Source: a virus
Strand: one strand, 5' to 3'
IMG/VR virus record: IMGVR_UViG_3300025697_003353
Coordinates: 1 to 22,668 of that record
DNA length: 22,668 bases
The first letter of the stretch is position 1; each line of letters starts with the position of its first letter. Below the pieces are notes generated by a model. That model saw nothing but the letters and a program-made list of their open reading frames with translations, was not told the DNA's origin and did not search any database. Both the position numbers and the translations under genes were made by a program. Below, piece after piece: positions 4,544 to 21,570 of this stretch.

Positions 4544-6835
4544 CTATATACTAAAGTCGTGAGTGAAGTAAATCTTGCATGCTCCTGGGCCAATCGCAAT
4601 CGCCGTCTTGAATATCTTCTTCTTGACGAGTTCGTCTGCAATATCTACTGCAGTAATTCCCTTGAGATTAGCAAGCATTACTTCGTCCACACCGCCTCCA
4701 ACTGTTGAAGCTTGGGTTGTCTTCACGAATTCAAAAATCTCTCGTTGTATGGTGCCTAGGTACGAAATTCGCATACTTGGAGACATCTGATTCTCATTTA
4801 AGTTTTCTGACCACGATTTTATTATCCGCCCAAGGATTTCATCACATTCTTTTACGTCATCATCAGTACAGATGAACTTCCCTCGATTTTCTACGACTGA
4901 TTTGTATTTAGCATAGCCATCTATCATTCTGTAGATGTGCATTATCATACGAGAGTCGTATATATCTAGTTCAAGACTTGCAGGGACAACTCCTCTATAC
5001 TTGTCTTGAATGTCTTGCGCGACTTTAATAGGGATGTCTATTGTGAAGGTGTGCATATAGTCTACCATACTTACAAAGTGTGGATCATGTTTTGGGAATG
5101 ATTCTTCCTTCTTGAACTTCATTACACTGCTTTTGTGGTCGTTGATAAATTTGATATGTTCCTCATTGTAAACATACCAGAGAATACGAGACATGAATGC
5201 CACGTTTAGTTTTTCATGCAAATCTACTAGATTTTTGATATGCTCGTAAGGTCTGATGTTTGAACAGAAGCACGTCCACATCTTTGGTTTGGCTTTGATT
5301 ATCCCAAACGCAGAGGAATGTTCTCCCTCAGAATGTTCAAGAACTTTGAGGAGTTGATAGCTTCCTCCGTCAAAATCACTACCGTTTCTTGAAGAAGACT
5401 GGATGATATGGATGAACTCATCCACAAATCCGAATCGCCTGCATTTAATTAGATATCCTTCTTTCGGGATTCCATTTGCAAACGAAGGTACAAGACCCTT
5501 GATAGTTCCTCCATCATTGAGAGGTTGCTTGAACGCAGTGCCCATAGTCTCAAGCATCTTTGTTTTGCCAAGAGCCGGAGGAGACATTAAAGACAGATGT
5601 GTAGGCATCTCTGAAAGTTTCCCAGAGAATGCCCAACTTATCATGAACCTCGAGAACCAATCAGGATGAGGATACATACCGAATAGGCATTTATGCAGAT
5701 GTTCTTTGTTGTAGTCTTTTGCAATTTCCCAGAATTTTTCCTTGCCGATTGTATCGACTGAAGGTTTCTGAGAATGAACGAAGAATACTTTCTGAGTTGT
5801 ATTTATCCTCGCCATGTTTCCTATCTTCATGTAGTCGTAGCAGTTTGCTTCCATTCCATATATTTTACATCCGCTTAAATCTAATTCTTCGGGAGATAAT
5901 AGGATTATTTCCTCAGTCGTATCTGACTGAAATTTATAGACATAAAAAAGAGAGTTGTATCTTACAAACGCAGCGAGTTTCTTACATTCAGTTGGTTTTG
6001 TTTCTCCAAAATACTGGTAGATAAATTTCCCTCCGAGAGTATATACTGTGATGAGAGTTACTGATTTCTTAGCTCCGTCTAGGTTGCTGATAACTTGTCC
6101 ACTAAGACATTGTTCTTTTGATATGATGAATGGCAGAAGGAGTTCGGAAGGGAAAGCGTTTGTGTTTTGATTGAAGTGAATAGGGAGGATAGTTCTGAGT
6201 GCATTTTTTATCTGTTCATAAGATAGATTCAGGTCGGTAGCTATCGAAACGAATGTCTTTCCCTGGTCGCGTAGTTCTTGTAGAGGAGGGAGGAATGCTG
6301 TTTTTATCTCGCTTCCAACTTCGTATTTTACAGATACTCCAGACTCAAGAGTTTTAATTTTCGTAGCTTCAATATAGTTTTCAAGAGGAGATACATCTAT
6401 GGTTGCGCTGAACGATCTTACTTCAGATAAGAGTTCATCGTTGGGTATTTTTCCAACCTTTTCTTCCCAAGTGTTCAGTAGAACTGCGTTCTTTACTCCA
6501 TCTTTGATTAAGCAACTCCGAAGAAGTTCTGTGATATAATTCTGGTTGAATTTTTTCTCAGGACGAGATGTCCCTTTATTCTGTTTTGATAAAATCTCTC
6601 CAATCGTTGTATAAACCTGATCCATTTCTTCTATGATAAAATTTTTGTTTCTAAGAAAAGGTTTGATATGCCGTGGCTCAGCTTTTTTATTCTTCTGTAA
6701 CAGTTCTTCTGCAAGAGTACAAATCTCATCACTTGTGAATTGATGTACTTTTATTTTTCCTTCTAGACGTTCCCTATTAGTAATCTCAGGGAAGTCTGGA
6801 AATCTATTATTCACGCCTCGTACATTTTGTGCCAT
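4544..6835 (-). CDS. MCM-like AAA+ replicative helicase
   Basis: The start at ATG 6835 (763 residues) is chosen over an upstream ATG at 6907 because GGTGAG lies just before it and the previous gene stops at 6840. Numbering from this start: an HTH-like stretch near 195-217; Walker A SPPALGKTK at 418-426; GTIKGLVPSF after it, matching the MCM GxxGLTAA region; Walker B FGFVDEF at 468-474 (MCM has VIDEF); sensor 1 CFCSN at about 522-526; and an arginine-finger SRILW near 549-553 (MCM has SRFD). The end looks like a winged helix (about 700-760), as in MCM. No N-terminal zinc site is obvious. It should unwind viral DNA at the fork as a ring. It differs enough from cellular MCM to be virus-type. Confidence 0.75.
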   Translation of the reverse strand: MAQNVRGVNNRFPDFPEITNRERLEGKIKVHQFTSDEICTLAEELLQKNKKAEPRHIKPFLRNKNFIIEEMDQVYTTIGEILSKQNKGTSRPEKKFNQNYITELLRSCLIKDGVKNAVLLNTWEEKVGKIPNDELLSEVRSFSATIDVSPLENYIEATKIKTLESGVSVKYEVGSEIKTAFLPPLQELRDQGKTFVSIATDLNLSYEQIKNALRTILPIHFNQNTNAFPSELLLPFIISKEQCLSGQVISNLDGAKKSVTLITVYTLGGKFIYQYFGETKPTECKKLAAFVRYNSLFYVYKFQSDTTEEIILLSPEELDLSGCKIYGMEANCYDYMKIGNMARINTTQKVFFVHSQKPSVDTIGKEKFWEIAKDYNKEHLHKCLFGMYPHPDWFSRFMISWAFSGKLSEMPTHLSLMSPPALGKTKMLETMGTAFKQPLNDGGTIKGLVPSFANGIPKEGYLIKCRRFGFVDEFIHIIQSSSRNGSDFDGGSYQLLKVLEHSEGEHSSAFGIIKAKPKMWTCFCSNIRPYEHIKNLVDLHEKLNVAFMSRILWYVYNEEHIKFINDHKSSVMKFKKEESFPKHDPHFVSMVDYMHTFTIDIPIKVAQDIQDKYRGVVPASLELDIYDSRMIMHIYRMIDGYAKYKSVVENRGKFICTDDDVKECDEILGRIIKSWSENLNENQMSPSMRISYLGTIQREIFEFVKTTQASTVGGGVDEVMLANLKGITAVDIADELVKKKIFKTAIAIGPGACKIYFTHDFSI

Positions 6836-6839
6836 AGTC

Positions 6840-7082
6840 TCACCGGTACATTGACATTGATGTGTCCTGTTTCTGTTTCTTTTGTATATGTTGTTGTTGA
6901 TGTTCATCTCTATGGAGTGCAGAGAATTTTATTCTCTCGATTATAAAAACACCCTCCGCAGTAGTAACTTTGTAGGTATCGAATACTCCAAGTAGTGCCC
7001 TCTCACACGCAACAAGTTCAGATGCGCGGACGTTTGACGAAGTTATATTTAACTTTTTAATCTCGTTTTTTTTCTTTGCCAT
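6840..7082 (-). CDS. Unknown small protein upstream of the helicase
   Basis: ATG 7082 (MAKKKNEIKKLN) is preferred over 7139 because GGGGAG lies about eleven bases before it and the longer form would cover much of the AbrB-like gene. The 80-residue product has a Lys-rich start, a central helix (RASELVACERALLGVFDTYK), two likely strands (TTAEGVFIIERIKFSAL) and a Gln/Lys-rich tail. Its last codons carry the helicase ribosome site. It overlaps the previous gene by 26 bases. No family is recognised; co-expression with the helicase is likely. Confidence 0.6.
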   Translation of the reverse strand: MAKKKNEIKKLNITSSNVRASELVACERALLGVFDTYKVTTAEGVFIIERIKFSALHRDEHQQQHIQKKQKQDTSMSMYR

Positions 7083-7535: not shown

Positions 7536-7667
7536 TTATCCAAAACGTATGAAGAGTTGGATTAGTCCGAATATCCCCATGCCACAAGACACGCCTAAAA
7601 TAAAAGCAAGAAGAAGATGATAGAGATATTCTATCGTTCTGTCGTTGATATCGAATGCGATTCTCAT
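7536..7667 (-). CDS. 43-residue single-pass membrane protein (paralogue of the 12205-12363 product)
   Basis: The ATG overlaps the stop of the 61-residue gene upstream (ATGA), so translation is probably coupled. The product begins MRIAFDINDRTIEYLYH, then a hydrophobic segment (about 18-40: LLLAFILGVSCGMGIFGLIQ) and ends FIRFG. It aligns with the 52-residue product at 12205-12363: both have an I-x-ID/ND...T...I-Y head, a Cys-Gly membrane helix, F.LI and a C-terminal RF. That similarity between two separate loci is strong evidence that both are real genes. The role is unknown. Confidence 0.75.
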   Translation of the reverse strand: MRIAFDINDRTIEYLYHLLLAFILGVSCGMGIFGLIQLFIRFG

Positions 7668-7849
7668 GCGTACCACTTATCTATTTTTTTATACTCCCTT
7701 GCTAGTCTATCAGGAACAAATTCTAATAGAATTTTGTCTGCTTCGGAATGGGCACTCTCAGTATCAAACCGATAATTTCCAGATGCTATCATCTCGTCTA
7801 TTTTTGTTTCATCGCCTGCTTTAGCAAGCATACATTTTTCTGTTTTCAT
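7664..7849 (-). CDS. Unknown 61-residue protein
   Basis: ATG 7849 is chosen because GGTGG lies three to eight bases upstream, immediately after the stop of the AbrB-like gene; a longer frame from 7903 would run back into that gene. The product is acidic in the middle (ETKIDEMIASGNYRFDTESA) with a C-terminal helix (DKILLEFVPDRLAREYKKIDKWY). It overlaps the next gene by four bases. An acidic partner of the neighbouring AbrB-like protein is possible, but there is no family match. Confidence 0.62.
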   Translation of the reverse strand: MKTEKCMLAKAGDETKIDEMIASGNYRFDTESAHSEADKILLEFVPDRLAREYKKIDKWYA

Positions 7850-7857
7850 TTTACCAC

Positions 7858-8010
7858 CTACAGTTTTTGTAACTCCCACTTCTTTGGCCCCACTCTGACC
7901 CATAATACTGAATCTCCGAGTTTTATTGCCAAATCTTCTCTTATCTCCTTGGACAAACCGACCACCAGGGAAGGATGTATCGGATTGTTGTTTCCCTTTC
8001 TTACTTTCAT
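7858..8010 (-). CDS. Short AbrB-like protein
   Basis: The start at ATG 8010 overlaps the stop of the AAA+ gene (ATGA) and follows GGGAGG; a longer frame from 8100 lies inside that gene. The 50-residue product (MKVRKGNNNPIHPSLVVGLS then KEIREDLAIKLGDSVLWV) shows the AbrB layout: a strand, a short helix, LAIKLGDSV, then a strand pair (VRVGPKKWELQKL). It resembles the 7057-7248 protein over the helix and LGD core. It is probably a small DNA-binding regulator; at 50 residues it is at the lower size limit for the fold. Confidence 0.65.
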   Translation of the reverse strand: MKVRKGNNNPIHPSLVVGLSKEIREDLAIKLGDSVLWVRVGPKKWELQKL

Positions 8011-9320
8011 ACTGATGCGCCTCCCTTGTTCACTTGAATTTTCACTCGGTTTATGGCTACGAGTATTCCACGATCCAATGCTGCACTTACCATCCTGCAC
8101 GCCTGTCTCTCACTGATTTGCTTCTGCAATGCAATAATCTCTGTGAGTTGCTTTCGAGTTAGGTCTGGCTTCTGTGTGAGAATTCTTACACAGATATCGT
8201 CCGCGTCGTCTGTTGCGATATACGGCTTGGCTATCTTCTCATAGACTTCCTTTACCTTGTCGTCGAATCTCAGGAATAAGGATTTCATACATCTTGCGAC
8301 TAGGATTGCTCTTGTCCTGGCTCTTGCTGATAGTGATTTGTTAAACACTGTCGCATTGTTCGCTATGTTTATTATGAAATCCATCACATACTGCGATTCA
8401 TCTGGGGTTAATTCTTCAACTCCATCAGTTCTGATGAGAGTTATTTTGTCTTTGATTATTGCCCAGACATCCTCATTCATACGATACGTTTGTGCAGATT
8501 TTATTTTCTCTACAACATGCTTGTTGTCGAGGTTTGTTCCGTTGAATAGAGTCCTATCGAATAGTGGTGCCGCAGCGGCATCTGTAACTCCGAAGTGATT
8601 CATATTCGCGATGATAGTTCCTTTGAAATCAAAGGCGTCGATTGTATCTCCCTTCATCGTTAGCCAACTAACCTTTCCTCCATACAATGCAGGACGCAGG
8701 ATAAACATGGACATCTCATCGTTCATGATATTCTCCGCCTCGTCGAAGCAAACTATTGAACAAAAGTTTTGCTTCAAAGTTTCATAGAGTTTCTTTGGAG
8801 TCATAAATCCACGGATAATTACAGCATCGATAATATCGAGTTTCTTCAGAAGGTCTGATGTTCCTCGAGATTTTCCTATGCCTTGCTTTCCCATGTTTAT
8901 GACGTTCGTCTTCTGCTTTCCCTGCTTACCATTCATGCAAGCAAAGAGAGTAGAGTACGTGACGTTCTCCATGTAGGGATTATACGCTGAGATTTCTTTG
9001 ATTATATCCTCACGCATAACCTCTATTTTCTGATTTATTGAGTCTTTCCTTCCCGCGATTGCTTGATACTTTGCAGTTTCCTTCTTTTCTATGTCTTCCT
9101 GCAGAGCATCAATCATACGGGTTGAAAGTTCTTTGTCCGCAACCATTTCAGAACGCATATCTACAGCTTTGCCCTCTCCTTTGAGCCAATCCTTTAACAC
9201 ACGTTTGTTTTGGTCGAAGGTGAGACGCTGATCTATTATCACCGTCTCGACTTTCTTTTCATCCGCCCCTGCTGCTTTCGCAATATCTTTCAGAGCTTCG
9301 ACTTCTAATGGATGTAACAC
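8007..9320 (-). CDS. AAA+ ATPase with C-terminal winged helix, replication-associated
   Basis: A 437-residue protein starting at GTG 9320, four bases after GAGGTGA; an ATG two bases upstream in another frame reads only five codons. Residues 1-115 are helical and charged. Walker A is GKQGIGKS (144-151), Walker B IVCFDEAE (189-196), sensor 1 IIANMN (236-241) and a probable arginine finger FDR (254-256). The end (about 380-435, LTEIIALQKQISERQACRMVSAALDRG) looks like a winged helix. This layout fits an initiator, helicase loader or second helicase-like motor. It sits directly after Ku and in the same array as the MCM-like helicase. No closer assignment is possible from motifs. Confidence 0.72.
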   Translation of the reverse strand: MLHPLEVEALKDIAKAAGADEKKVETVIIDQRLTFDQNKRVLKDWLKGEGKAVDMRSEMVADKELSTRMIDALQEDIEKKETAKYQAIAGRKDSINQKIEVMREDIIKEISAYNPYMENVTYSTLFACMNGKQGKQKTNVINMGKQGIGKSRGTSDLLKKLDIIDAVIIRGFMTPKKLYETLKQNFCSIVCFDEAENIMNDEMSMFILRPALYGGKVSWLTMKGDTIDAFDFKGTIIANMNHFGVTDAAAAPLFDRTLFNGTNLDNKHVVEKIKSAQTYRMNEDVWAIIKDKITLIRTDGVEELTPDESQYVMDFIINIANNATVFNKSLSARARTRAILVARCMKSLFLRFDDKVKEVYEKIAKPYIATDDADDICVRILTQKPDLTRKQLTEIIALQKQISERQACRMVSAALDRGILVAINRVKIQVNKGGASV

Positions 9321-9329
9321 ATATTCACC

Positions 9330-10109
9330 TCACTTCGCATTTACCATGGCAATACTCTCTTTGAGTAAGTCCTCCACGGATTTGTCTTTCGTAACAGTTG
9401 CCTTGATTACGGGTTTGGTTGGGATTGGTTGTCCTGTCAGCTTGGCTTCTACTAGCTGGTCGATTACTACGTTGCGTTTCTCCCCAACTTCAGGAAGGTT
9501 TGTTGCAGATAGACCGGTCAGCAGAGCATCCATGCTTTGTTGTAGTTCTGGCTTGCACACTGGAGCGCCCTGGTCTGGTGCCATTGCAACTTCGCTTGGG
9601 AAGTAGAGAACATACATCATCCCTTGGTTTCCTTCAACCTTGAGGATTGCTGTGCGTTCCTGACGTCCTTCCACATAGACAAAACGGAGCTGTTTTTTGC
9701 TATCAAGTAGCCTTCCTCCTATCAATCCCCAGAAAGTTGCATTCTGCGGAAGGAAGTTGTATAGGCTCTTTACATAGCTGGCGGGAATGTCTTCTAAGTC
9801 TTCAACTCTGACAGTTGAGACTTCGGCCTGCCTGCTCGCATAAGCCCCATTGAGTTCTTCCTCTGTGAAAGTTACGACGGTGTCACCGATTTTCTTTCCT
9901 TTGAGGATTTGGTCAGATGAGACTTCATCTCCAGTTATTTTATCTATTTTTTTGTACCCGATTGGGTTCCCTGCAGAGCTGAATTGTTTCAGTCCGCTGA
10001 GATTTTCGGATGCCATACGCAAAAGCCTGCCTTCAAGTGGGATATTCCCAAACTTGAGGGTAATCTTTGTGCGTGGAGTTCCGACTTTTCTAGTTCCTTT
10101 GTTCTCCAT
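9330..10109 (-). CDS. ku: Ku-like DNA end-binding protein
   Basis: ATG 10109 is chosen because GAGGTG lies seven bases before it (259 residues); an ATG at 10127 lacks a site. The order of features follows prokaryotic Ku along the whole length: TKITLKFGNIPLEGRL at the start (Ku SISFGLVNIPV), GYKKIDKITGDEV (Ku RYKKVDKETGEEV), ILKGKKIGDTVVTFTEEEL (Ku IVKGYEY..GKYVVLTDEEL), EVSTVRVEDLEDIPASYV, a strand-rich core (RFVYVEGRQERTAILKVEGN) with MYVLYFPSEV, and a C-terminal LVEAKLTGQPI...SVEDLLKESI matching the Ku ..LIEAKLeGk and VVDLMEALKaS ends. Ku forms a ring on double-strand ends and recruits a ligase. No ligase is in the window. It has its own promoter-like region and precedes the AAA+ gene. Confidence 0.88.
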   Translation of the reverse strand: MENKGTRKVGTPRTKITLKFGNIPLEGRLLRMASENLSGLKQFSSAGNPIGYKKIDKITGDEVSSDQILKGKKIGDTVVTFTEEELNGAYASRQAEVSTVRVEDLEDIPASYVKSLYNFLPQNATFWGLIGGRLLDSKKQLRFVYVEGRQERTAILKVEGNQGMMYVLYFPSEVAMAPDQGAPVCKPELQQSMDALLTGLSATNLPEVGEKRNVVIDQLVEAKLTGQPIPTKPVIKATVTKDKSVEDLLKESIAMVNAK

Positions 10110-10142
10110 ATATTTACACCTCATCATGTATATACGATTATT

Positions 10143-10177: not shown

Positions 10178-10201
10178 ATTGGAATGATTATAGCATTATA
10201 A
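10168..10201. terminator. 12-bp inverted repeat at the end of the VWA gene
   Basis: TTATAATGCTAT and its perfect complement ATAGCATTATAA are separated by ten bases. The right arm contains the TAA of the VWA gene and the left arm contains the TATA-like motif for ku. It may therefore end the upstream transcript, bind a regulator of ku, or both. There is no long T-run. Confidence 0.45.
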
Positions 10202-11962
10202 TAGCATGGATTTCCATGTTCGGAAACTTGCACTCTCTTCTAAGTAGATTTTCATGAGTTTCTCTGGGAGTTCTTCTATCTTTGTTATTGCGAATCCTTT
10301 GAGGTATGTTGCACCGATAAATGTCATTGCTTCGGGAGTTATACCTATGCCGATAATACTGATACCATCTTTCTCGGCTTCTCGCGCTAAGAAGTACATA
10401 TCCATGAAGGAATTCGCATTGAAGTGTCTTTCGTCGTTTGTTCCGTCTGAATGATTTGGTTTTCCATCGGATATAACAAAGATTATTTTCTTTCCTCGTT
10501 CTGAATTCATGATGTTCATAATATGGCGTATGCTCGAGCTGTCCCGATTTACGTCTCCGTCACCCCCCATAAATTCAATTTTATTCATATTTAATTTCTC
10601 GTCGAAGTCTTTTATTATTTCATCTTTTATCTCAAGAATGCCATGCTCCGCCCAAAATCCTCTGATTGTGTGGGGAACACTCATTTCCTCAAGAGCTGTT
10701 GCTAGCATAAGAGCTGCACTTCTTGCGTTCTGAATTTTAGCTCTCCCCATCGAGCCAGACATATCTATCATGATTGCTACGCAGTGGTCGTGGATTAGTG
10801 GAGTTGTATCTGTAAAGACGTTGAAGTCGGACAGTCTGCCTCTGTTTTCTTGCATATTTTCTATGACTGCCCCGACATCGAGTTCTCCGTCTTCAAGTCT
10901 GTGTCTGTTACCATCTTTGAATTTTAGTTCTTGTATTAACTTCTTTGCGATTTTGTTTCCTTCTTCGATTGAATATTGAGGATTAGTTATACCTCCTCGG
11001 GCCCCGAATTTTGGTTCGGTTATTTTTACTACTGTTGGATCGTAAGGTCGGACATACTCGGTTTGTTGTGTATATGAAGGAGGTTTCTGTTCTCTTGGGA
11101 TAAGTTTGGATTTTTCCCCTTCTTTTTCTTCGGATAGTTTTTTGGTAGCTTCCATGAATTTTACAAGAGCCGGAGTTCCGTCGTTTGTTTCTTTCGGACC
11201 GGGTTGGGTTGTGGTTATTATGTCGCCATCTTTGATTTCTTCAAATACGGGGTGCTTCTTTCTTCCTTTGCCAGTACGCCCAGATTCAAATTTGTCAGTA
11301 CGCCCAGATTCAAATTTGTTTGTTAAAGAGAAATTGCTACCATAAGAGTTTGTTGTAAATTGTTTGAGTCGTTTGTAAGCATCATAAGCGAGTGGGAATA
11401 ATGAGCGAGTTGATGGATATTTCTCAAAGTTTTTAGCTTTAAGTTCAGCTCTGAGTTCTCTGATTACTTTTCTCGGTTCTTTTTTAACGAACTTGCATAA
11501 ATCGATATTATCGAGGAGAAGATGAAGAACATACGAAGGAGTTCCCGTCATATCACTGACATATTGTTTCTGTGCGTAGTCAAGACGCCACCAGCGTGCT
11601 GTTTTTTTGAGATAATATTCTGAATTCGGGTAGAGAACTGCTATGCGGTTTTCTATTCGGTAGTCCTCGAGGGAATTTAGTTGGCTGTGAACTCCTTCGG
11701 CATCTTCGGGAGGTACGTTGAACTCTTGTGCATAGTCGATATATGAAGTTGCGATTGCATGCCCAAGTTCGTGAAAACCAAGACCGATTAATACTTCTAT
11801 ATCTTCTGATAAATCTTCTTTGATTGATATTTCTCCTGTCTGAACATCGCAAAATGTTCCTTTTTTTGTTAATTTTACATTTACATCTCGTCCTATCGCC
11901 ATTCTGGATAGGACGTTGAGATGCAAACTTATTTCTTGCTCTGCTTTCTTTTTGTCGAGCAT
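10196..11962 (-). CDS. HExxH metallopeptidase-like and VWA-domain protein, CobT-like
   Basis: A 588-residue protein; ATG 11962 follows GAGGTGAAACC. The N-terminal domain carries HELGH (64-68) and, about 30 residues on, LNSLEDYRIE (95-104), an HExxH zinc-site pattern with a likely third Glu ligand, as in gluzincins. A low-complexity linker (about 205-330) includes a tandem KFESGRT repeat. The C-terminal VWA domain (about 392-575) has the MIDAS residues DMSGSM (400-405), GGDGDVNRD and VISDGKP (Asp499). VWA proteins of this kind pair with MoxR/CobS ATPases to remodel protein complexes, and a MoxR-type gene lies about 400 bases upstream in the same operon. The target is unknown. The fusion suggests ATPase-driven cutting or metal handling, which is inference. 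Confidence 0.82.
   Translation of the reverse strand: MLDKKKAEQEISLHLNVLSRMAIGRDVNVKLTKKGTFCDVQTGEISIKEDLSEDIEVLIGLGFHELGHAIATSYIDYAQEFNVPPEDAEGVHSQLNSLEDYRIENRIAVLYPNSEYYLKKTARWWRLDYAQKQYVSDMTGTPSYVLHLLLDNIDLCKFVKKEPRKVIRELRAELKAKNFEKYPSTRSLFPLAYDAYKRLKQFTTNSYGSNFSLTNKFESGRTDKFESGRTGKGRKKHPVFEEIKDGDIITTTQPGPKETNDGTPALVKFMEATKKLSEEKEGEKSKLIPREQKPPSYTQQTEYVRPYDPTVVKITEPKFGARGGITNPQYSIEEGNKIAKKLIQELKFKDGNRHRLEDGELDVGAVIENMQENRGRLSDFNVFTDTTPLIHDHCVAIMIDMSGSMGRAKIQNARSAALMLATALEEMSVPHTIRGFWAEHGILEIKDEIIKDFDEKLNMNKIEFMGGDGDVNRDSSSIRHIMNIMNSERGKKIIFVISDGKPNHSDGTNDERHFNANSFMDMYFLAREAEKDGISIIGIGITPEAMTFIGATYLKGFAITKIEELPEKLMKIYLEESASFRTWKSMLL
11272..11319. repeat. Perfect 24-bp tandem duplication inside the VWA gene
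   Basis: Two adjacent identical 24-base units (starting CAGTACGCCCAG) encode KFESGRTD and KFESGRTG in the linker. The unit length keeps the frame. The two copies are identical at DNA level, pointing to a recent duplication and possible length variation between strains. Confidence 0.9.
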
Positions 11963-11972
11963 GGTTTCACCT

Positions 11973-12191
11973 CTATAAATTTGATTTATAACCTAAATCC
12001 CAATGTTGTTTAAACCCGCAATTTTTACAGAAGAAATAAGATATATTACCTATAACACGTGTTGTTAAATCTGGATTTATCAGTTTATGAGGTTCATAAA
12101 CTGCGTCTGTATTTTTTACTATGCTATCATATCCGCATCGTTCGCATTTGAATTTTACTTTATATACCATACCCCTATTCCCATTCTCCAT
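11973..12191 (-). CDS. Small zinc-ribbon protein
   Basis: A 72-residue protein from ATG 12191, five bases after GAGGTGA. Two CxxC knuckles (CERC at 16-19 and FCKNC near 54-58) about 35 residues apart form a zinc ribbon. The middle contains a basic, mostly strand-like region. Such single-domain ribbons bind nucleic acid or protein partners in transcription and replication. It sits between the MoxR-type ATPase and its VWA partner, so it may belong to that system. No specific family is recognised. Confidence 0.72.
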   Translation of the reverse strand: MENGNRGMVYKVKFKCERCGYDSIVKNTDAVYEPHKLINPDLTTRVIGNISYFFCKNCGFKQHWDLGYKSNL

Positions 12192-12204
12192 ATTCTCACC
12201 TCAA

Positions 12205-12363
12205 TCAATTAAATCTTAATCCGAAATGGATTAATGCGAAGATTGCAAAACCTGCACACATTCCAAGACAGAAAATTAGAAATCCGTAGAAGGAATACAT
12301 AATTATTCTTTCTGCGGTTGGTTCGTCTATTTTTATTATTACTTGTTTCCCATTGTTTCCCAT
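12205..12363 (-). CDS. 52-residue single-pass membrane protein (paralogue of the 7536-7667 product)
   Basis: The ORF starts at ATG 12363, five bases after the MoxR gene stop, with GGAGG in the last codons of that gene. It encodes MGNNGKQVIIKIDEPTAERI, a hydrophobic helix (about 22-47, YSFYGFLIFCLGMCAGFAI then FALI) and ends HFGLRFN. It aligns with the 43-residue product at 7536-7667 over most of its length. Two related tiny membrane proteins, one in the MoxR/VWA operon and one in the replication array, suggest a membrane link for these complexes. The role is unknown. Confidence 0.78.
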   Translation of the reverse strand: MGNNGKQVIIKIDEPTAERIIMYSFYGFLIFCLGMCAGFAIFALIHFGLRFN

Positions 12364-12367
12364 TTAT

Positions 12368-13204
12368 TTAATCATCCTCCTCGTTATATACTTTCTTTAC
12401 GAATACATTTTTTACGAATTGTCTGATTATCTCCCGTTCTTTTGGAGTTTCTGCCAAGGTTGGAATTACTGTGTTTTCCGCTGCGATTAATGGATCAAAC
12501 CCTTCTTTAGTTTGTTCTGCCCAGTTAATCATACAACGAGTTGATAGTGGAGCGAATCCTGATTTCTCTCTGTTCGCTCTGACTGCGGATGCGACTCTGA
12601 CCATATTCTTAGCTGTTTCCTTTGGGAGTTTTGTTTCCCTGATAAGAAGTTGTGCTTCTATTTCTTGTGAAAGATATGGGACATCTACCCATACGGCGAT
12701 TCGATTTTGGATTGCAGGATTGAAACGTTCTGTTCCTCTGTATCCAAGATTTCCAGTAAAGACGAATCTAAAATCGGGATGCGCCTTTACTACCTCGCCG
12801 TCCTTTCTTGTAAGGACAACTTCTTTCTTGAAGTCCATTGGAGAATAAAAACAAAGCGATACTGCACTTGACATAGCGTTCGCTTCTTCTCCAATAAAGA
12901 CTTTCCCTTCCCTCATACATCGTGTAAGAACACCATCGTTCCATACTACTTTTCCATCTTTATCAAAGTCGTACTTCCCGATGATTTCACCTTGGGTGAC
13001 AGTAGAATGGAAATTGATAGTTTCATATTTCCATCCTGAATGTTCGCAAAGTTCTCTTACTAAGAATGATTTGCCAGTTCCTGTGTCGCCTGTTAGCATC
13101 AATGGTTTTGCATTGTTAAGTGCGTAGCATACTGCAGGAAGGACATTCCATTCGTCGATATATTTGAGGTTCGGTTTGGTTTCCTCTAAAGATATCTTAT
13201 TCAT
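12368..13204 (-). CDS. MoxR/CobS-type AAA+ ATPase
   Basis: A 278-residue protein with Walker A GDTGTGKS (39-46), Walker B KVFIGEEAN (101-109), sensor 1 FVFTGNLGY (147-155) and NPAIQNRIAVWVDV (162-175), the MoxR-type arginine-finger region. The insert with FKKEVVLTRKDGE (125-137) before sensor 1 is usual in this clade. ATG 13204 follows AGAGGT. MoxR-type ATPases act as rings with VWA partners to remodel or insert cofactors into target complexes. The partner here is the HExxH/VWA protein two genes downstream, with a tiny membrane protein and a zinc ribbon between. CobS-like genes occur in other viruses, where their role is not settled. Confidence 0.87.
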   Translation of the reverse strand: MNKISLEETKPNLKYIDEWNVLPAVCYALNNAKPLMLTGDTGTGKSFLVRELCEHSGWKYETINFHSTVTQGEIIGKYDFDKDGKVVWNDGVLTRCMREGKVFIGEEANAMSSAVSLCFYSPMDFKKEVVLTRKDGEVVKAHPDFRFVFTGNLGYRGTERFNPAIQNRIAVWVDVPYLSQEIEAQLLIRETKLPKETAKNMVRVASAVRANREKSGFAPLSTRCMINWAEQTKEGFDPLIAAENTVIPTLAETPKEREIIRQFVKNVFVKKVYNEEDD

Positions 13205-13211
13205 GTTTATT

Positions 13212-13514
13212 CTACCTCTGTTCTACCTCTGTTTCGGTTATCTCTGTTTTCTGTTCTTCTTTCGGTTCTTTCGGTTCGTTCTCCTGAGCTATTTTGAGAA
13301 GTGATTTTGTGAAATAATCCATCATTTCTCCGACGATAGCTGAGTGTAGTGTTTTCTTATCTTCAGTTGTATAAAAGTATCTGAAGCCTGAAGGGGACGA
13401 AGGGGACGCTATCACAGTTATGTGTTTTAGACATAACTCAGAGATACGAGATACAGATGCTTTTAGTTTTCTGTATTCTCGCTCGTCTTCATCGGTTAAT
13501 TCTATTTCTACCAT
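13212..13514 (-). CDS. Unknown protein with acidic tail, upstream of the MoxR ATPase
   Basis: A 100-residue protein; ATG 13514 follows GAGGTGAATAA. Residues 7-35 form a charged helix (DEDEREYRKLKASVSRISEL), the middle is strand-like (ITVIASPSSPSGFRYFYTTED), then a helix (HSAIVGEMMDYFTKSLLKIAQ), then a Glu/Pro/Lys-rich tail. The final codons carry the ribosome site of the MoxR gene, so the two are probably translated together. No family is recognised; it could be an adaptor for the ATPase. Confidence 0.68.
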   Translation of the reverse strand: MVEIELTDEDEREYRKLKASVSRISELCLKHITVIASPSSPSGFRYFYTTEDKKTLHSAIVGEMMDYFTKSLLKIAQENEPKEPKEEQKTEITETEVEQR

Positions 13515-17972: not shown

Positions 17973-18230
17973 ATGCCTAGAAGACACAAACCTGAACTCC
18001 GCCTATCCAAAAAAGAACTTAACCGGGGATTCGTACTCCGTTCAGATGTCAGATGTGCAAAATATTTTCGCATCGGAGAAATCAGACGTGCAGTAGATAG
18101 AGATGGTCGTTCACATTCAGTAAAAATAAAAATAACATACATCGAAATAACTCCGAAAATAAAACTCGGAAAAATAGAATTTGTAAATCTGGAGGGATAT
18201 TGTGTCGTCAATACAAGAAATAAAAAATAA
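17973..18230 (+). CDS. Unknown basic protein
   Basis: An 85-residue protein; ATG 17973 lies about nine bases after GAGG. It is rich in Arg and Lys at the start (MPRRHKPELRLSKKELNRGF) and strand-rich later (SVKIKITYIEITPKIKLGKI). The last ten codons overlap the next gene and contain its ribosome site. A small nucleic-acid-binding or structural protein is possible, but no family is recognised. Confidence 0.66.
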   Translation: MPRRHKPELRLSKKELNRGFVLRSDVRCAKYFRIGEIRRAVDRDGRSHSVKIKITYIEITPKIKLGKIEFVNLEGYCVVNTRNKK

Positions 18231-19692
18231 AGAAAATGAGATTAAGAAACTCGCTATCTGCGTTCCAATGCGCGGAAAAGTAGATGTAATCTTTATGCAG
18301 TCCTACTTAGCACTGTTCATCCATCTCCTCAAAAAACGTGGCATCGTAGCTCAACCTGTTTTTTCAGATGCAATGCCTTTAGACAAAGCGCGCAATCAAC
18401 TTGCAAAATCTGCAATCCTCAATAAATCTGACTATGCCCTATGGCTCGATTCAGATATGGTAATGACAGAGGCGCACTTCGAAAAAGCGTGGAATACACT
18501 TCATAAACTTGACGACGAAGGAAAAGAGCGTTTCATCGTTTCTGGAATTTATTACGAGCGTGAAATTCCCTATGACGCAGTAATCCGAAATAAAAACGAA
18601 CTCGGTCTCTACTCGAAAATCATGGACTTCCCAGATGACAAACCATTCAAGATTGATGGAATGGGTTTCGGATTCGTCCTAATGAAATCACAACCGCTCA
18701 AAGATGCTTTTGCAGCAACACAAGGTAAACCGTTCCAATGGACTGAAAAGGTTTCAGAAGATTTGCACTTCTGTGATTTAATGTCTGGGAACTCAGAGCT
18801 TACCAATATCCGTATGGTAGATAAGGACAAGAATCCAATCACATACGATATCTGGTGCGACCCTGAAATACAGATTCCGCATTATGGTTCCTACACAACT
18901 CAATGGCATCATCTCCATTACAAACTGGATGAGTATGCAGATACGTCTGAACTTGCGAGATACTTGAAAATCCAATCAGAAGAGTGCTACACTAAATGTG
19001 TAAATGGGGCCCTCGCCATGTGCAAGGAGTGGCAATCAGTATTCGGAAAAAATCGCGACGACTCTACAATCCCAGAAGCGGAAGTTCTGAAATTCTATCG
19101 CAACACGAAAGGATATCTCTACGACCTCACCTGGTTCTGGTCACATAGCAGACAGACGAGAGATATGGTAGTGAAGAGATGGGTGAAAGATGCTCCTCGT
19201 GTTCTTGATTTCGGATGCGGACTTGGTGACTATGGATTGATGTATCTTACAGACTATCCCAAAACTAAGATGGATTTCTATGATATCAATATCGCAAATC
19301 TCGACTATCTGAAATACAGAATCGACAAGAAATCCGAAAAGGGACACTTCCAAAAAGAGAACTGTACTGTGTACGAAGGAGAGCTTCCACCAAACGAGGA
19401 CAAATACGACATGATATTCGCCCTCGACGTTCTTGAACATCTGAAGAATCCTTCAGTTGAAGTTGCAAAGATTCGCAAGATGCTCAAACGTAATGGAACT
19501 CTCATAGCGCAAGTGTCTCCAAAGGGTGCCTTCCAACCACAACATATCTCTGAAATCGATATATCTCGACATGGATTTATCCAAACGGATTTGTACACAT
19601 ACGTGCGAGACGACAGCGACATGGCAGTAAGTTATGCTGCCAATGTCAAAAGGATAAAGGACAATATGGTTGTCAACCCGATGAAGAGATAG
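18202..19692 (+). CDS. Glycosyltransferase-methyltransferase fusion
   Basis: A 496-residue protein starting at GTG 18202, five bases after GGAGGG. The N-terminal part (about 15-240) looks like a GT-A glycosyltransferase: KLAICVPMRG, MPLDKARNQLAK, and a DxD metal-sugar site in ALWLDSDM (Asp83, Asp85). The C-terminal part (about 300-470) is a class I SAM methyltransferase with VLDFGCGLGD (334-343), an acidic strand end FYDIN (Asp361) and DMIFALDVLEHL (403-414). Fused enzymes of this type usually build or cap surface glycans or modify proteins. In a virus it may decorate virions or host surface, or modify DNA bases. It sits just before the terminase genes. The substrate is unknown. Confidence 0.8.
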   Translation: MSSIQEIKNKENEIKKLAICVPMRGKVDVIFMQSYLALFIHLLKKRGIVAQPVFSDAMPLDKARNQLAKSAILNKSDYALWLDSDMVMTEAHFEKAWNTLHKLDDEGKERFIVSGIYYEREIPYDAVIRNKNELGLYSKIMDFPDDKPFKIDGMGFGFVLMKSQPLKDAFAATQGKPFQWTEKVSEDLHFCDLMSGNSELTNIRMVDKDKNPITYDIWCDPEIQIPHYGSYTTQWHHLHYKLDEYADTSELARYLKIQSEECYTKCVNGALAMCKEWQSVFGKNRDDSTIPEAEVLKFYRNTKGYLYDLTWFWSHSRQTRDMVVKRWVKDAPRVLDFGCGLGDYGLMYLTDYPKTKMDFYDINIANLDYLKYRIDKKSEKGHFQKENCTVYEGELPPNEDKYDMIFALDVLEHLKNPSVEVAKIRKMLKRNGTLIAQVSPKGAFQPQHISEIDISRHGFIQTDLYTYVRDDSDMAVSYAANVKRIKDNMVVNPMKR

Positions 19693-19702
19693 GAGAATAA
19701 AC

Positions 19703-20191
19703 ATGCCAATATACCAAGGGAGTGTATTCAAACAGTTCCTCATAGATAGATATGCCATGGGTTTCGAGCCGGCTGCAATATGCAACGAGTTCGAGACTCA
19801 GATGGGCGTACCTGTCAGTGAGTCCGAAGTCGAGATAATCCTCAAAGGATGCAATAACGAAATCCGCGCCAGAGAGGAAGAACTGATAACTGAACTCAAA
19901 TCCCAAAATGTAATTGGCGCACTCCTCTCAATCAAAGCGGAGTTGGTAGAAGTAGCATCAATGGCAAAGGCGGATAAGGATTACAAAACTTTTGCGCAAC
20001 TCTCAAATTCTTCTATGAAATCTATCGAAGTAATTATCAACATGACGGAGAAGTTCAGAACTCGAGAAGATACAAAAACTCTCGTAGCAGTACAGAATAA
20101 TTACTTCGCAATCGAAGTCCTCGTAAAAGACGGACTCATCGAGGTAAAAGATGAAGCAAAACTAAAAGAAATACTTGGAGATGAGAGGTAA
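19703..20191 (+). CDS. Probable terminase small subunit
   Basis: A 162-residue helical protein; ATG 19703 follows AGGAG. Its stop overlaps the large terminase start (TAATG), so the two are translated together, the usual terminase gene pair. Residues 5-50 (FKQFLIDRYAMGFEPAAICN; VPVSESEVEIIL) fit a helix-turn-helix that would recognise the packaging site. The middle is a long coiled coil (IRAREEELITELKSQNVIGA, SIKAELVEVASMAKADKDYK), suited to ring assembly. The assignment rests on position and fold pattern, since small terminases diverge strongly. Confidence 0.7.
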   Translation: MPIYQGSVFKQFLIDRYAMGFEPAAICNEFETQMGVPVSESEVEIILKGCNNEIRAREEELITELKSQNVIGALLSIKAELVEVASMAKADKDYKTFAQLSNSSMKSIEVIINMTEKFRTREDTKTLVAVQNNYFAIEVLVKDGLIEVKDEAKLKEILGDER

Positions 20192-21570
20192 TGCTCAATC
20201 TTTCTGACTCACTCTGCCGAGCATCCTTCGAGTATTTCTGCAAGATTATACTCAAACAGAAACTCGGAAGCATGCATAAAGCGTGGATTAAAGCTGTTCT
20301 TCAGAAAGACAAACATACTTGCATCATGTCAGCGCGTGGACACTTCAAAACTACTATCCTCTCCATATCTTTCCCTCTCTGGGTAATGTACAAAGAGCGG
20401 GACCCAAAGATGATAGTTATTCTTTCAGCAACTCTTGACCAATCAACTGAGATTATGAATCTCATAAAAAGATTGATTGAAGACACTCCAATCCTTCGAG
20501 ACATGATGTATCCTGAAAATATCCACAAAGCCAAATGGTCAGAAACTCAGATAGGAACTAAAAACAAACATAGAATCCTCTGCCTTCCTTTCGGAGATTC
20601 CGTCAGAGGAAAGCATCCTGACTACTGTATCTGTGATGATGTCCTAAAAGCTGAAGTTGCAACAGATATAGAAAGTTCAAAAAGAATATTCTACGGAATA
20701 GTATTCCCAATCGTTCAAGCCAGAAAGGGAAAACTTATCGTCGTAGGAACTCCAGTTTCATATACTGATTTACTTGCAGACCTATCAGAAAAACCTGACT
20801 TCACCTTCCTCAAATATCCTGCAATAATTTTCAACGAAGATGGAACATGGAAGGAATCGCAATTCCCTGAACACTTCGATATAGAACAACTCAGAAAGAT
20901 AAAGAATAACATGCCTTCCCATCTATGGGCCCGAGAATACCTCTGCAATCCTGCATCAGAAGATACAGCAGTATTCCCATGGTCAGTTCTCAACAAAGCA
21001 ACTGCAATGTATGAAGATGTAAAAGCAACATACAAAGCCCATGAAGCAAAACCTCGCAAGGTAATCGGTTGCGATATTGCTGTAAGTGAGGGTGCCAGGG
21101 CTGACTTCAGTGTCTTTAGTGTCGTGGACAGTATTCCCAACGAACCTCACCTACTTACTGATATAGTTCGCAAACATCTTACCCCTGAGAATAATGTCAT
21201 AGAAATACGGGCTCTTTACAAATATCATAATCCTGACCGCATCCTAATTGAGAAAACAGGTGTAGGGTGGGGAACAGCTAAAGCATGTGTAGATGATGAT
21301 ATGATGAAAGGAGTTACTGTGGATTTCGATACCAAGGCTGCCAGCAGAGAACGTATCCTTTCTCGTCTTGAAGTTCTAATGCGCAACGGACAAGTTGCCC
21401 TCCCAAAAAATGACGTCCTCTTATCAGAACTCTCCCAGTTTGCATACAAGAAAACGAAGCATGGTATGTCTTATCAATCGTTGGGAGAGCATGATGACTG
21501 TGTTATGAGCCTTGCAATAGCGCTCGAAGCGGCATCCGAAGCTTCTTTTGTCAGTTTGACTTTGGTATAA
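20191..21570 (+). CDS. terL: Terminase large subunit (packaging ATPase-nuclease)
   Basis: A 459-residue protein with all terminase landmarks. The Walker A is the deviant type SARGHFKTT (47-55). Walker B is DYCICDD (144-150), motif III is VVGTPVS (184-190), and the RNase H-like nuclease has GCDIA (Asp295), LIEKTG (Glu354) and EHDDCVMSLA (Asp435/Asp436). It cuts concatemeric viral DNA and pumps it into the prohead through the portal. ATG 20191 overlaps the small subunit's stop. Length and motif order are normal for the family. This gene is the best marker for placing the virus by phylogeny. Confidence 0.95.
   Translation: MLNLSDSLCRASFEYFCKIILKQKLGSMHKAWIKAVLQKDKHTCIMSARGHFKTTILSISFPLWVMYKERDPKMIVILSATLDQSTEIMNLIKRLIEDTPILRDMMYPENIHKAKWSETQIGTKNKHRILCLPFGDSVRGKHPDYCICDDVLKAEVATDIESSKRIFYGIVFPIVQARKGKLIVVGTPVSYTDLLADLSEKPDFTFLKYPAIIFNEDGTWKESQFPEHFDIEQLRKIKNNMPSHLWAREYLCNPASEDTAVFPWSVLNKATAMYEDVKATYKAHEAKPRKVIGCDIAVSEGARADFSVFSVVDSIPNEPHLLTDIVRKHLTPENNVIEIRALYKYHNPDRILIEKTGVGWGTAKACVDDDMMKGVTVDFDTKAASRERILSRLEVLMRNGQVALPKNDVLLSELSQFAYKKTKHGMSYQSLGEHDDCVMSLAIALEAASEASFVSLTLV

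Follow-up and report, generated by a model that had tools for sequence, protein, structure and literature searches.

We have analysed a 22,668-base stretch of viral DNA, IMG/VR virus record IMGVR_UViG_3300025697_003353 (the whole stretch is referred to below as the window), with particular regard to 2 leftward genes that encode a CobS/CbbQ-type ATPase and a CobT-like VWA protein. Family searches identified terminase and tail genes in the window, and therefore it is, by its gene content, a fragment of a tailed phage. A preliminary description of the sequence had listed 4 adjacent leftward open reading frames (ORFs), in the order ATPase, membrane protein, zinc ribbon and VWA protein, and we observed all 4 of them at the positions given in Table 1. 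The gaps between them are 4, 13 and 10 nucleotides, respectively, and a purine-rich Shine-Dalgarno-like stretch precedes the ATG of each of the 3 downstream genes. The tight leftward run extends beyond these genes, to an ORF at 13212-13514 on the upstream side and to the Ku-like and P-loop genes on the downstream side, and therefore spacing alone does not mark off a 4-gene unit.

Table 1. Features of the ATPase-VWA locus and its neighbours (window coordinates)
Feature	Position	Strand	Basis
CobS/CbbQ-type (MoxR class) AAA+ ATPase, 278 amino acids	12368..13204	-	Pfam and phrog matches, orthologue in contig L010
Walker A motif GDTGTGKS, ATPase residues 39-46	13067..13090	-	sequence motif
Single-helix membrane protein, 52 amino acids, between the core genes	12205..12363	-	one clear hydrophobic helix
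Zinc ribbon-like protein, 72 amino acids, two CxxC pairs	11973..12191	-	sequence motif
CobT-like VWA protein, 588 amino acids: zincin-like domain at the N-terminus, joined to a VWA domain by a disordered linker	10196..11962	-	CobT_C, AlphaFold
N-terminal metalloprotease-like domain, residues 1-203	11354..11962	-	AlphaFold, Foldseek
HELGH, residues 64-68, in predicted helix 55-71	11759..11773	-	motif, conservation, AlphaFold
LEDYRIE, residues 98-104, in predicted helix 85-110	11651..11671	-	motif; Asp100 and Glu104 kept together with HExxH
VWA domain, about residues 389-575	10238..10798	-	most like NorD VWA (Foldseek 9qh6, E 2.0e-13)
MIDAS motif DMSGS, residues 400-404	10751..10765	-	sequence motif
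Ku-like protein	9330..10127	-	Pfam Ku 3.3e-08; 42% identity with L010 2500-3267
P-loop protein, 437 amino acids, no family assigned, syntenic neighbour	8007..9320	-	66% identical in contig L017

The assignment of the 2 larger proteins rests on profile matches and on comparison with their closest relatives, which are encoded by a 43.7-kb contig (L010). The ATPase matched the Pfam families AAA_5 (7.7e-22) and CbbQ_C (5.4e-13) as well as phrog_249 (2.8e-36), and is 47% identical to its L010 orthologue; in its Walker B motif the position of the Asp is occupied by Glu106, and the following Glu107 is invariant. The VWA protein, 42% identical to its L010 orthologue, matched Pfam CobT_C at 4.3e-10, with 40 bits as compared to a gathering cut-off of 21, and carries ISDG at residues 497-500 in addition to the DMSGS of the metal ion-dependent adhesion site (MIDAS). 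It did not match the Pfam CobT N-terminal domain, PF06213, which was matched by 25 of 44 homologues.

Structure prediction provided more information about the N-terminal part of the VWA protein. AlphaFold modelled the full-length protein with a mean predicted local distance difference test score of 77.5 and a low-confidence linker at about residues 206-262, and the N-terminal domain modelled alone gave a predicted template-modelling score of 0.83. In the model, strands within residues 28-48 precede the helix that carries HELGH, which is followed by the acidic helix, and this predicted layout is zincin-like. Either E99, D100 or E104 is a candidate for the third metal ligand, with D100 and E104 being the co-conserved residues in the predicted acidic helix. 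The best 5 Protein Data Bank matches of this domain in Foldseek searches were to Methanocaldococcus jannaschii selecase and jannalysin (probability 0.87-0.98), which we take to be minigluzincin peptidases; further HExxH enzymes, among them ZMPSTE24, IrrE/PprI, ArdC and LTA4H, ranked lower. The viral structures sharing the domain in a structure search were CobT-like and VWA proteins. In shuffles of the VWA protein, HExxH alone occurred in 2.6% and HExxH together with the ED..hE motif in 0.01%; their conservation across relatives, described below, makes a chance origin of these motifs untenable.

The preliminary description had treated the 4 genes as one module, and this could not be upheld: none of the relatives retrieved encodes a protein that credibly matches the membrane protein or the zinc ribbon. 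This includes L010, in which the ATPase gene overlaps the VWA gene and no small gene lies between the two. Thus, the 4-gene order is not kept, while the ATPase-VWA core within it is. The zinc ribbon also gave no family above cut-off in profile searches. A paralogue of the membrane protein lies at window positions 7536-7667 (36% identity, E 7e-7 in a single comparison, above all 2,000 shuffles); since there is a second copy and no conservation, we do not count this protein as part of the core, and a specific role for this duplicated small gene of the phage was rejected. From these comparisons, the real module is one of 2 genes, and the pair is already known in viruses. The earlier statement that its use by a virus was undescribed is therefore superseded, since the pair has been published as cobST (PMC8651126), and is known from the halovirus Hardycor1; p618/p892 of Acidianus two-tailed virus (ATV) is an analogous MoxR-VWA pair.

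The pair is indeed widespread. In 2 sets of further viral contigs, the ATPase gene is the same-strand neighbour of the VWA gene in 74/78 and 35/37, respectively, and adjacent copies are found in isolated phages of Gordonia, Vibrio (ICP2), Rhizobium, Brevibacterium, Stenotrophomonas and Bacteroides, in Zobellviridae and in SSU5-like phages. The pair also occurs in E. coli phages. In a Salmonella genomic island the 2 genes lie a few genes apart and flank ssb and bet; the VWA protein of this island (L021 6947-8743 and L283 9001-10797) is HExxH-bearing and CobT-like, and is present on 1,153 plasmid records; 961 of these are predicted to be conjugative, and many are identical or almost identical. 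One such record that was examined is typed IncC,IncN. By these criteria, the window pair is a divergent member of a CobS/CobT-like family that is distributed over phages, phage-plasmids and conjugative elements. The neighbours of the pair in 22 viral loci were mostly DNA polymerases, primases, helicases, UvsX and Cas4-type exonucleases, as compared to mostly structural genes in control regions distal to the pair in some of the same viruses. This context locates the pair in a replication module, which is no proof of a role there.

For comparison of the residues proposed to form a metal site, 122 further viral loci were collected, and removal of near-copies at 80% identity left 91 viral and element sequences in the whole set. 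Relatives in IMG/VR were reached with profiles built from 2 or 3 moderately close sequences; direct searches of IMG/VR with single proteins found none, nor did a scan of genome contigs with the window pair. We observed that His64, Glu65, His68, Asp100 and Glu104 are all kept in 61/91 sequences, that none or 1 of the 5 is kept in 28/91, and that only 2 of the 91 are intermediate, with 2 or 3 residues; therefore the 5 residues behave as residues that function together. The MIDAS residues D400, S402 and S404 are present in all 91. Part of this sample carries a selection bias, in that the patterns that retrieved the A9 loci (L229-L270) overlap the site, and those that retrieved some other loci overlap the ED motif; without the A9 set, and after dereplication at 60%, all 5 residues are found in 31 of 44 sequences. 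The claim of the preliminary description that HELGH belongs to a metal site thus stands, given the co-conservation of the 5 residues and the predicted folding of the region as a minimal zincin. HExxH is not a universal feature of viral CobT, since a large clade (L152-L211) and the phages BUCTxx99 and nickie are without it. Altered residues are seen at the site in a large viral clade, as in GAAIQNAALASM ... LNTERIDK. The clade L152-L211, with the metal site lost and the ATPase partner and MIDAS retained, constitutes a natural control group.

Cellular CobT proteins presented a different picture, with GLGDSMALRRACH ... VEQARVE at the aligned place. The metal site was found in 0 of 79 alphaproteobacterial CobT proteins, a set of close kin that are not independent of each other, and in none of the other cellular CobT proteins examined, for which the widened search reached Pseudomonadota only. 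Among hits from 249 Pseudomonadota genomes, an aligned HExxH was seen only in L141 and L142, whose neighbours, as judged by eye, are mobile-element-like; 2 further proteins from cellular genomes, L121 and L145, have an HExxH, but away from the aligned position. The VWA part gave a tree on which the state of the site has to change 5 times, with only 2 of these changes forced by well-supported branches, and this tree does not separate gain of the metal site from its loss. In the aggregate, the new point that is well supported by these alignments is that a conserved, all-or-none, metalloprotease-like site divides most of the viral and element branch of the family from cellular CobT.

We consider the pair to be, with somewhat better than even confidence, a 2-gene MoxR-VWA remodelling machine with a metalloprotease-like domain that serves phage DNA replication or recombination. 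The earlier proposal of an ATPase-driven remodelling or proteolysis machine is also our best reading of the locus, in view of the adjacency of ATPase and VWA genes and the predicted minimal zincin fold. The parts of this reading differ in strength. The pair is very probably a MoxR-VWA machine, and the conservation pattern makes it likely that the N-terminal domain has a metal site. For HExxH motifs with a conserved Glu, proteolysis is the commonest function, and we infer, somewhat tentatively, that this domain too acts by proteolysis, while a role in replication or recombination seems to us evenly balanced. In the related NorQD system, a finger of the VWA protein is inserted in the ring pore, the N-terminal domain makes a second contact, and ATP drives turning of the partner (PMC9976466, PMC13036017). 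By analogy, the phage ATPase would form a hexamer on which the VWA domain would dock with its finger in the pore, and ATP hydrolysis would turn or pull the VWA partner and in this way remodel a target protein to which the MIDAS and the N-terminal domain hold on. Within the minimal zincin, the HExxH helix and the following Asp100/Glu104 helix would bind a metal, probably zinc, and this metal domain would most likely cut, or at least grip, the remodelled target. The machine would thereby serve the replication, recombination or repair of the element's DNA rather than cobalamin synthesis. The gene pair, its distribution, the co-conservation of the motifs, the predicted fold and the gene context are direct results of the analysis; the NorQD mechanism is carried over to the phage pair by homology, and complex formation, metal binding, peptidase activity and the target are inferred.

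Several observations weigh against this reading, and some of them lend themselves to another. The Glu at the Walker B Asp position is shared by the window and L010 ATPases; the best Foldseek matches of the N-terminal domain are marginal (E 0.07-0.3 for the top 5); phage genomes are modular and replication genes cluster in them anyway, which makes the argument from gene context a weak one; and we did not find biochemistry of any viral member in the literature. Also, the clade L152-L211 keeps both the pair and the MIDAS without any of the metal site, and therefore at least one role does not require it. That this clade and cellular CobT manage without the site would be expected if the pair were a non-proteolytic chaperone in the manner of NorQD or CbbQO, which remodels or metal-loads a complex and uses its HExxH domain only for target binding or as a metal donor. 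We regard such a chaperone as a serious possibility, although not one that we would favour: the VWA domain is nearest to that of NorD, and NorQD drives metal insertion by twisting, with its N-terminal domain as a lever (PMC9976466), yet the strict co-conservation of the catalytic Glu65 with both His residues goes beyond the needs of a binding surface. Removal of a host defence or regulatory protein, by a protease of counter-defence or host takeover, would fit the wide spread of the pair over unrelated phages and conjugative elements and the coupling of MoxR-VWA pairs with peptidases in conflict systems (PMC7159879). In a search of defence families, however, the VWA protein had no match and the ATPase only weak P-loop matches, and on this ground assignment to a defence system was rejected. 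The pair also has replication genes, not accessory clusters, as its surroundings, and a counter-defence protease appears unlikely. Less likely still is a chaperone of virion assembly or maturation, as proposed for the ATV proteins, which interact with each other and of which p618 is a major virion component; the gene context of the family members is one of replication and not of structure, and the ATV ATPase was modelled on RavA, which belongs to another MoxR group.

The published interpretation of the viral pair is that CobS and CobT recruit the host CobN, insert cobalt and raise the supply of cobalamin, for example for a class II ribonucleotide reductase (PMC8651126). The same report recorded cobST in tailed viruses of 8 host orders; elsewhere the function of phage cobS was called uncertain (PMC11288001). 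The literature names the pair a cobalt chelatase, and a peptidase label of cyanophage cobT was called a mistake. In favour of a cobalamin function are the profile match of the viral family to cellular CobT over the full length (E 8.7e-56), Pfam matches to CobT_C and CobT, and the B12-dependent ribonucleotide reductase encoded by cobaviruses. Nevertheless, CobN (PF02514) was found in 0/32 viral records, which may be fragments; the control for this search matched in 5 of 14 named genomes. The window VWA protein gave no match to TIGR01651 (CobT; cut-off 759 bits), for which other phage CobT-like proteins scored 126 and 179, and the window ATPase scored 48.1 bits on the CobS equivalog TIGR01650, far below its curated cut-off of 558.6. 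The HExxH site is one that cellular CobT lacks. Furthermore, the pair is present in E. coli phages and IncC-type plasmids, and E. coli is without native de novo cobalamin synthesis, which had to be engineered into it (PMC6249242). Recruitment of CobN for cobalamin supply thus seems to us improbable for the pair, and a cobalamin role is unlikely for the HExxH branch, although individual viruses may still have one.

These considerations bear on how cobST is cited, often as a viral auxiliary metabolic pair and as a sign that the virus controls vitamin B12. The metalloprotease-like site, the absent CobN and a host that does not make B12 de novo argue that this interpretation is wrong for most members. 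The dismissed peptidase label for viral cobT may be right, and the site makes it worth testing; if it is right, very widespread mobile elements carry an undescribed ATP-driven machine for protein processing. A broader proposal, which we hold to be rather doubtful, is that most viral and conjugative-element "CobT" proteins are AAA+-driven metalloproteases and not chelatase subunits, that the zincin site is ancestral and disappeared from cellular CobT on its conversion to a cobalt chelatase subunit, and that the pair represents a mobile-element class of ATP-dependent protease, with the protease on the VWA partner, in DNA replication or recombination. As a separate matter of nomenclature, a phage CobT-like protein (L025 3696-5804) is annotated as dimethylbenzimidazole phosphoribosyltransferase, in confusion with the unrelated enterobacterial CobT, and PMC11288001 seems to share this mix-up.

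Some neighbouring features deserve mention. In L010 the gene order is Ku, ATPase, VWA, P-loop protein and DNA ligase, and the contig also encodes a large protein matching window 4544-6907. By this comparison the Ku-like protein, which adjoins the pair in 2 distant phage contigs, the window and L010, is a syntenic neighbour. L010 also encodes an ATP-dependent DNA ligase (8231-9112), which may form a phage end-joining set with the Ku-like protein. Window 7763-7849 is a vestige of the L017 DNA ligase gene, in which 29 codons are 69% identical before the sequence becomes unrelated and the rest of the gene is missing. Near the operon in L010, at 629-931, is a small membrane protein with an HELVH motif of its own. 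Elsewhere in the window, a single ORF at 1152-2642 contains an intein splicing domain (E 5.7e-9) beside a transglutaminase core, and is probably an intein in a transglutaminase-like gene. In the ORF at 18202-19692, a methyltransferase domain is fused to an N-terminal part that is like phrog_1574 and has glycosyltransferase-like similarity. The terminase large subunit (20191-21570) has its nearest counterparts in the DAC16 group of large Bacteroides phages (26% identity), which hints weakly at a Bacteroidota host.

In comparison with known systems, the N-terminal domain shares its predicted strands, HExxH helix and acidic helix with the minigluzincins selecase (4qhf) and jannalysin (4jix), in a marginal match (E 0.07, template-modelling score 0.3). 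The minigluzincins are small single-domain proteins, and we know of no ATPase partner for them. The NorQ-NorD and CbbQ-CbbO chaperones share the CbbQ_C-type ATPase, and the fold of the window VWA domain is most like that of NorD; PMC9976466 describes the N-terminal domains of NorD and CbbO as mutually unrelated, and neither that paper nor PMC13036017 mentions an HExxH site. ATV p618-p892 is likewise an interacting viral pair of MoxR ATPase and VWA protein, and was assigned to tail development outside the cell. Cellular CobS-CobT (PDB 9uka, 21vt) has the same domain order and a full-length profile match, but cellular CobT is without His64, Glu65, His68 and Asp100 and partners with CobN, which the viruses lack. 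The closest counterparts are the viral cobST pairs, such as gp41-42 of Vibrio phage ICP2, those of Roseobacter phage CRP-810 and 72-73 of Gordonia phage Gray, which have the same adjacent CobS-like ATPase and CobT-like VWA protein; the window proteins are only about 15-30% identical to them, and most of these pairs share the HExxH and ED..E site.

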